In this document: positions 2,603-3,658 of the stretch, piece by piece
Numbering within the stretch: position 1 is the stretch's first letter
How the letters are laid out: each line of letters starts with the position of its first letter
Source of the DNA: Chloroflexota bacterium
Lineage (GTDB): Bacteria > Chloroflexota > Anaerolineae > Anaerolineales > UBA4823
DNA length: 5,056 nucleotides
Assembly (NCBI GenBank): GCA_030636125.1
Contig: DAOVXM010000244.1
Location: 1-5,056 of the forward strand
Reading direction: 5' to 3'
The notes under the pieces: model-generated
Told to the model about the DNA's origin: nothing
The model's input: the letters and a program-made list of their open reading frames with translations, nothing else
The model's database searches: none
Program-made: the position numbers and the translations under genes

Positions 2603-3658
2603 ATGAAAAAGATCATCCTATCTGCAACTCTTTTTTTAGCTGCTTGTGCGCCGGTGGTGACTCCCACGTTGACGCCGGCGCCGTCAGCGCCTGCGGTACA
2701 AGACCAGCCCCAGGCAACAGCAACCTCTCCAGAACTTGCCTCGCCGGGAACAACGCCGCAGCCAGCGCCGACCAATGCGCGCATAGAAGATGATAAGGAA
2801 TATTTTGTGCCACAAATGCTGGCCTTCGACGCCATCTATCCAGTCTACGATCCAATATTTGCTCCAGCGAGCGAAGCCGCTCTTAACGATGATGAATTAG
2901 TGATGGGCGTGGCCATCGATGGGCAGGCGAAGGCCTACCCGGTATCTGTTTTGCGTTTTCGAGAAATGGTTGACGATGAATTGGCTGGCTGGCCCATTCT
3001 CGTCACCTGGTGACCGATTTGCTACACCGGTCTCGTGCACGACCGGAGAATTGATGGGGTGACCCACACCTTTGGCAACGCGGGGTCGCTTTTTATGAAC
3101 GCCATGACCTGGTATGACCATGAGACAGGCTCGATCTGGTCACAACCCTGGGGGCGGGCGATCCAGGGAGAGCTCAAAGGCGTACAGCTTAATTTGCTTC
3201 CTTTCCAATTGACGACCTGGGAGAACTGGAGGGATGCCCAACCGGATACGCTGGTCATGATGAATGATGTCAATCGCCTGGGCGGGCGCCGGCAGGGCTT
3301 TCAAACAGATTTTGTCGTAGGGCTAGTGCTGGCAGAGGATGCCAAGGCTTATTATTATGAGGATGCCCTGGAAGCAAGGGTGATCAATGATACGCTGGGC
3401 GATATTCCGATCGTCCTTTGGACTTCTGATGAAATTTTCTACGCTTATGTGAGGGAAGTGGATGGAAGCGTTTTGACCTTCAAGGCTGATGGGGATATGT
3501 TGGTTGATGAAGAAACCAACTCGACCTGGGATCCAACCAGGGGCTTAGCGACCTCCGGACCGCTCCAGGGGGAGGGGCTGCGAGCGGTTCCCAGCTTGAG
3601 TTCCTTCGACTGGGCCTGGGAGGATTTTTATCCCGACTCGGAGTTCTATATTCCATAG
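2603..3658 (+). CDS. DUF3179-family lipoprotein, predicted selenoprotein (Sec137, UPIC motif)
   Basis: Reading TGA 3011-3013 as selenocysteine gives 351 residues. Residues 1-15 are a lipoprotein signal (MKKIILSATLFLAAC, lipobox L12-A-A-C15), so the mature protein should be anchored outside the cytoplasmic membrane. A Pro/Thr/Ala-rich linker runs to about residue 60. The DUF3179 domain follows: GVAIDGQAKAYPVSVLR, then GWPILVTW-U137-P-I-C140-YTGLVHDR, then HTFGNAGSLF, a YDHETGSIWSQ box near 171-181, and TTWENW near 204-209. In family members I recall, the Sec site is Cys in VTYCPLC, so this is a Cys-to-Sec replacement leaving a UxxC pair. The biochemical role of DUF3179 is unknown to me. Its probable co-transcription with ccdA suggests extracytoplasmic redox work. 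A purine-rich AGAGGA lies 13 nt before the ATG, a rather long spacing. A SECIS-like hairpin follows the UGA, and a terminator follows the stop. Confidence 0.88.
3027..3046 (+). promoter_or_regulatory. Bacterial SECIS hairpin of the DUF3179 gene
   Basis: CCGGTC (3027-3032) pairs with GACCGG (3041-3046) around TCGTGCAC, starting 13 nt after the UGA. An alternative fold keeps CCGG/CCGG, bulges TC at 3031-3032, then pairs TCG with CGA around the tetraloop TGCA. That version has a bulged U and a G at loop position 2, resembling the E. coli fdhF SECIS. Either fold meets the spacing expected for bacterial SECIS elements. Confidence 0.72.

Follow-up and report, generated by a model that had tools for sequence, protein, structure and literature searches.

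Can a frame that is interrupted by a single UGA encode one protein, and what would such a protein do? The question is raised by a 5,056-nucleotide stretch of Chloroflexota DNA (hereafter the window), in which two open reading frames of the forward strand, 2603-3013 and 3035-3658, lie in the same frame with one UGA (3011-3013) between them. Searched alone, the two halves match the DUF3179 profile PF11376 at positions 2-64 (E 4.3e-13) and, for the best stretch of the second half, 66-150 (E 2.6e-39). The read-through product matches the same profile with an E value of 9.9e-62 and a score of 209.4 bits, against a Pfam cut-off of 27. These separate and joint matches agree with the earlier note on this DNA, which had taken the two frames for consecutive parts of one domain split by one UGA. 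The whole gene (2603-3658, + strand) ends in a TAG codon (3656-3658), and its predicted product has 351 amino acids including Sec137. The motif across the UGA reads W136-U137-P-I-C140, U taking the place of the first Cys in the CPxC motif of the family; the codon for Cys140, the UxxC partner of Sec137, is at 3020-3022. At its N-terminus, MKKIILSATLFLAAC, the protein has L-A-A-C at residues 12-15 (2636-2647), by direct reading of the sequence. We take this to be lipobox-like by the lipoprotein rule, and the product is predicted to be an exported, membrane-anchored lipoprotein. Cys or Sec is found in the window protein at positions 15, 137 and 140 only.

Homologues were collected in two sets. 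Scanning genomes yielded 20 loci, every one in a record named Chloroflexota or its classes, and a search of 400 genomes from the phylum of one relative's genome (G001) gave 78 genomes with a match. The column of the UGA was read from 86 tblastn hits spanning it, with loci L021-L028 excluded; subtraction of two secondary hits, due to the internal repeat of the protein, and of six identical copies of the same places left 78 distinct genes. At the column, these genes have TGA (43), TGC (28) or TGT (7) and no other codon, and the residue three positions further is Cys in 78/78. The earlier note had placed the UGA on the first Cys of the family motif and expected a Cys/U column in homologues aligned over it; both points hold, with 43 UGA and 35 Cys codons. 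We infer that its further proposal, a redox role for this Cys family-wide, is supported as well. A quickly built tree with 82 rows (one fragment among the 78 genes left out and five full-length Cys proteins from the database added) requires at least six changes between Sec and Cys, and the two residues therefore swap repeatedly in DUF3179. A nonsense change or sequencing error in an ordinary Cys protein, to which the one stop dividing the frame could point, has a negligible probability, and the homologues refute it, save in the case that the window is unlike every one of them: this codon is TGA in 43 distinct genes and TAA or TAG in none, coding conservation continues past the UGA, and 115 of the 120 database matches listed (413 in total) start just past it, at window residue 144, 145 or 153. 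The other five matches listed are full-length, with 49-56% identity, and all have Cys at the column.

Some loci depart from the simple arrangement. Tandem DUF3179 copies, with UGA and Cys forms adjacent, are found at L012, L013 and L018, and UGA copies with an altered motif, U-T-L-C or U-V-V-C, at L069, L071, L073 and L070. At L008 (4755-5672), a second TGA closes the frame some 57 residues short of the end of the relatives' match; a second Sec, a frameshift or an assembly fault are the options.

Bacterial selenoproteins carry a SECIS hairpin at a set distance just past the UGA. In the window, CCGGTC-TCGTGCAC-GACCGG (3027-3046, + strand) would form a SECIS-like hairpin of 6 bp with an 8-nt loop, the apical loop starting from the 20th nucleotide after the UGA. 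All six stem pairs are formed in 28/43 UGA copies and in 0/35 Cys copies, counts that are not independent because the copies are related. The full stem of the window type is absent from the remaining 15 UGA copies, most of which carry another or a degenerate hairpin. Compared with synonymous-codon shuffles, the 54 nucleotides past the column fold with a mean z of -1.18 in the 43 UGA copies and 0.00 in the 35 Cys copies; the hairpin region of the window (z -1.89, p 0.045) is, taken alone, only moderately unusual.

In the 50-row clade that includes the window, the full stem is present in 28 of 31 UGA copies and in none of the 14 Cys copies, where 3 to 5 pairs form. Among these 31 UGA copies, same-residue codon identity at codons 5-11 past the UGA is 0.82, 0.88, 0.86, 0.87, 0.48, 1.00 and 0.94, the low value at codon 9 corresponding to the loop end of the hairpin; elsewhere the median is 0.50, and no other scored codon exceeds 0.78. 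The 14 Cys copies of the clade give 0.43-0.85 at the hairpin codons for a median of 0.64 elsewhere, and the seven codons have 0.51-0.94 identity when all 43 UGA copies, with their mixed hairpin types, are pooled. A previous estimate of 0.93-1.00 at six hairpin codons, obtained from 27 of the 43 UGA copies chosen by their hairpin, was replaced by this clade-defined set, with lower values. A far clade (L049 twice, L050, L051, L066, L067, L068) has a different hairpin, of 7 bp with a 5-nt loop, in which all seven pairs are formed; in L067 a C-G pair is replaced by A-U. At L012 and L013, a full-stem UGA copy stands in tandem with Cys copies having an incomplete stem. An Rfam search of the window gave five hits, all under their gathering scores. 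Only UGA copies preserve the hairpin at synonymous sites, and the SECIS-suited structure that the earlier note saw just downstream of the UGA is located at 3027-3046.

The inserted residue is not visible from the sequence alone, and the UGA might be read as Trp or Cys without selenium, through a changed code or leaky termination. This is very improbable: the ccdA gene upstream in the window itself terminates in TGA, the UGA stands on a Cys column where a Trp codon occurs in 0/78 genes, the hairpin is confined to UGA copies, and SelA and SelB are present in relatives. Trp in particular was rejected on these grounds. The most likely reading of UGA 3011-3013 is selenocysteine.

Among 33 tested genomes with UGA copies (G001-G019 and 14 more from the 400-genome search), SelA is found in 32 and SelB over its cut-off in 30, and none is without both. 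More broadly, SelA is present in 47/48 relatives' genomes, and SelB over cut-off in 18/20 genomes of the first set and in 66/78 of those with a match in the 400-genome search. A tRNA-Sec of at least 64 bits was detected in 17/20 relatives' genomes; this threshold was used because the gathering score, passed in 20/20 genomes, was also passed in 5/14 controls (SelB in 2/14 controls). SelB presence was dropped as a test for UGA copies and serves to check consistency without discriminating, because it is common in genomes with stop-free copies only (52/63, versus 14/15 with UGA copies). No tRNA gene was found in the window. Judging from these relatives, the window's own genome would possess the Sec machinery.

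The earlier note had suggested that DUF3179 might be a new selenoprotein family. This does not stand, because two reviews already list it: the selenoprotein tables of PMC9312934 (2022; PF11376, UxxC/T) and PMC13188914 (2026; UxxC/T) both include DUF3179, citing Zhang and Gladyshev 2007. PMC9230427 mentions DUF3179 once, in a table. The DUF3179 selenoproteins tabled in PMC9312934 and PMC13188914 are, like that of the window, bacterial members of the same Pfam family with Sec in UxxC; the latter is set apart by its Chloroflexota kin, its lipobox and its place beside CcdA and a deiodinase-like selenoprotein, and the table rows themselves carry no function, fold or context. A literature search found no paper joining DUF3179 with Rieske and none joining 'Rieske fold' with selenocysteine. 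The selenoprotein family itself is old, and what is new here is the Chloroflexota member, its predicted fold and its redox neighbourhood. A plasmid search (blastn, 1201 bases) and one scan of viral contigs gave no match.

The DUF3179 protein is an internal duplication, with two tandem lobes: the N-lobe (2822-3298, + strand) bears UxxC, and the C-lobe (3299-3643, + strand), its duplicate, has no CxxC. The structure model predicts a nearly all-beta protein, and both lobes are predicted to be of the Rieske type without cluster ligands. The resemblance of the N-lobe to Rieske is weak in Foldseek (E 0.37) and borderline by VIA, and the corresponding profile match is not significant, since 26/60 shuffles score equally high. 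Pfam did not report PF00355 for the window protein, no thioredoxin profile matched it at E 1e-3, and no PDB chain matched it by sequence up to E 1. The ligand motif of the Rieske [2Fe-2S] cluster, CxH...CxxH, is found in 0/78 DUF3179 genes, and the C-lobe of the window is devoid of Cys. Both lobes are predicted to share the fold of Rieske ferredoxins and NirD-type small subunits (e.g. 2qpz, 3c0d), from which DUF3179 differs by its missing CxH/CxxH ligands, by its two lobes in tandem and, probably, by the position of CxxC/UxxC in another turn. A location of UxxC inside the Rieske cluster loop was considered and dropped: the aligned ranges, which are not a residue-level superposition, place it some 12 residues ahead of the first ligand. 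The cluster loop 2 position may be near D172-T175, with UxxC in a turn.

A Rieske-type lobe could also suggest that UxxC binds a metal or cofactor, as a site for a soft metal or a rebuilt iron-sulfur site, instead of acting as a thiol-disulfide catalyst. A passage of PMC13188914, according to which Sec is possibly a metal ligand in some families, points the same way. We regard this as quite unlikely, given the missing ligand motif, the Cys-free C-lobe and the several neighbours of DUF3179 that are thiol-redox genes.

One of the genes surrounding DUF3179 in the window appears to encode a second selenoprotein, of deiodinase-like/AhpC-TSA type (368-1069, + strand; PF08534 E 7.5e-10 and PF00837 E 4.3e-8 for the frame from 362). 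Its in-frame UGA (575-577), in GSFT-U-PYC, is TGA in all eight distinct copies read, window included. A possible SECIS hairpin, weak, is located at 588-604, from the 11th nucleotide after the UGA, as judged from folds of several copies, with z from -4.16 to +0.70 across copies and -0.24 in the window. The protein belongs to the UxxC bacterial selenoproteins of the deiodinase-like family (PF00837), another Pfam family than DUF3179, which is among the selenoproteins in PMC9312934 and PMC13188914. Between the two selenoprotein genes, at 1404-1559, nested inverted repeats (20-nt arms at 1404-1423/1540-1559 and 15-nt arms at 1434-1448/1517-1531) resemble a small non-autonomous insertion element. 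Elsewhere, contig C134 of G001 has a stretch of about 50 kb rich in selenoprotein genes, with UGA-containing DUF3179, deiodinase-like and a number of AhpC-TSA genes, and L083 has a deiodinase-like fragment (3-272, + strand), with the Sec column outside it, near a DUF3179 Cys copy.

Directly before DUF3179, 34 nucleotides upstream, the window encodes a CcdA/DsbD_TM transmembrane thiol-electron carrier (1819-2568, + strand; PF02683 E 2.2e-21). Thiol-redox neighbours are found at 7 of 12 near-clade loci (window, L001-L009, L015, L030). A deiodinase-like gene, each time with TGA, is directly downstream of DUF3179 in L001, L004, L006 and L015, and L002 and L030 have an AhpC-TSA/redoxin gene upstream of it, at 2 nt and 7 nt respectively. 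At L003, L005, L007, L008 and L009, of which L003 and L005 are short contigs, neither tblastn nor a Pfam scan of 8 neighbours revealed a redox neighbour. At an E value of 1e-8, 11 of these genomes contain 7-12 AhpC-TSA matches apiece, and redoxin genes beside DUF3179 are therefore not expected by chance. The deiodinase-like gene is present in only 13/48 genomes.

Beyond the window, CcdA was searched by tblastn in 97 loci, overlapping ones included, and lies on the DUF3179 strand, no more than 1.4 kb from that gene, at four further places. It lies 4 nt upstream of a far-clade UGA copy with the other hairpin type (L049/L065), near a Cys copy (L115/L116), near another Cys copy with a TlpA-like lipoprotein in between (L120), and 97 nt from a stop-free copy (L123). 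At L115, genes for CcdA, TlpA-like, LGT, DUF3179 and DsbA-like proteins follow one another closely spaced on one strand, and a Thioredoxin_3 gene is upstream of the Cys copy of L052. A tblastn search of the 20 loci collected first gave no CcdA, and most DUF3179 copies have none nearby. The remaining neighbours scanned (Lon, Crp-type, MmgE/PrpD, BrkB and more) had no redox link. Crp-type regulator genes stand directly before related Cys copies at L055, L056, L075 and L077. In the window, positions 1-171 encode an anti-sigma-factor-like fragment (TIGR03988, weak, E 0.0016), which recurs near DUF3179 in L001 (3741-3899), and 3731-3946 (- strand) an FmdB-type zinc ribbon protein (TIGR02605).

The protein could be an independent Sec peroxidase, the redox neighbours being just stress genes under shared regulation and its reductant something other than CcdA. 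The deiodinase-like neighbour, a member of the AhpC/TSA superfamily, and the presence of CcdA near only some DUF3179 copies would fit; against it, CcdA recurs beside DUF3179 in several far clades, including the UGA copy of L049. We consider this alternative unlikely. We favor, with a probability of roughly 0.7, the reading that 2603-3658 is one DUF3179 gene whose UGA specifies Sec, encoding a membrane-anchored UxxC thiol/selenol oxidoreductase outside the cytoplasm that is likely fed by CcdA.

TlpA and ResA are extracytoplasmic thioredoxin-like proteins fed by CcdA/DsbD. DUF3179 resembles such proteins in its gene neighbourhood, its CxxC/UxxC and its export signal, whereas it is predicted to be nearly all-beta and not of the thioredoxin fold. 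In the proposed mechanism, Sec137 would attack an oxidised substrate (a disulfide, a sulfenic acid or a peroxide), and Cys140 would then resolve the intermediate to a selenenylsulfide with Sec137. CcdA would carry electrons of cytosolic thioredoxin over the membrane and so reset Sec137 and Cys140. A more ambitious picture, which we hold tentatively and at slightly less than even odds, is that DUF3179 derives from a Rieske-type fold, duplicated and stripped of its iron-sulfur cluster, which now serves as a new, non-thioredoxin scaffold for CxxC/UxxC on an extracytoplasmic lipoprotein fed by CcdA, with Sec and Cys exchanged at least six times.

The 115 of 120 listed database relatives that begin just past the UGA position expose an annotation fault. 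If the predicted fold is right, DUF3179 would place its UxxC pair on an unusual scaffold; as electron donor, the neighbouring genes suggest CcdA, which can be tested. The family is named as a domain of unknown function, and its exchange of Sec and Cys indicates which residue is catalytic.
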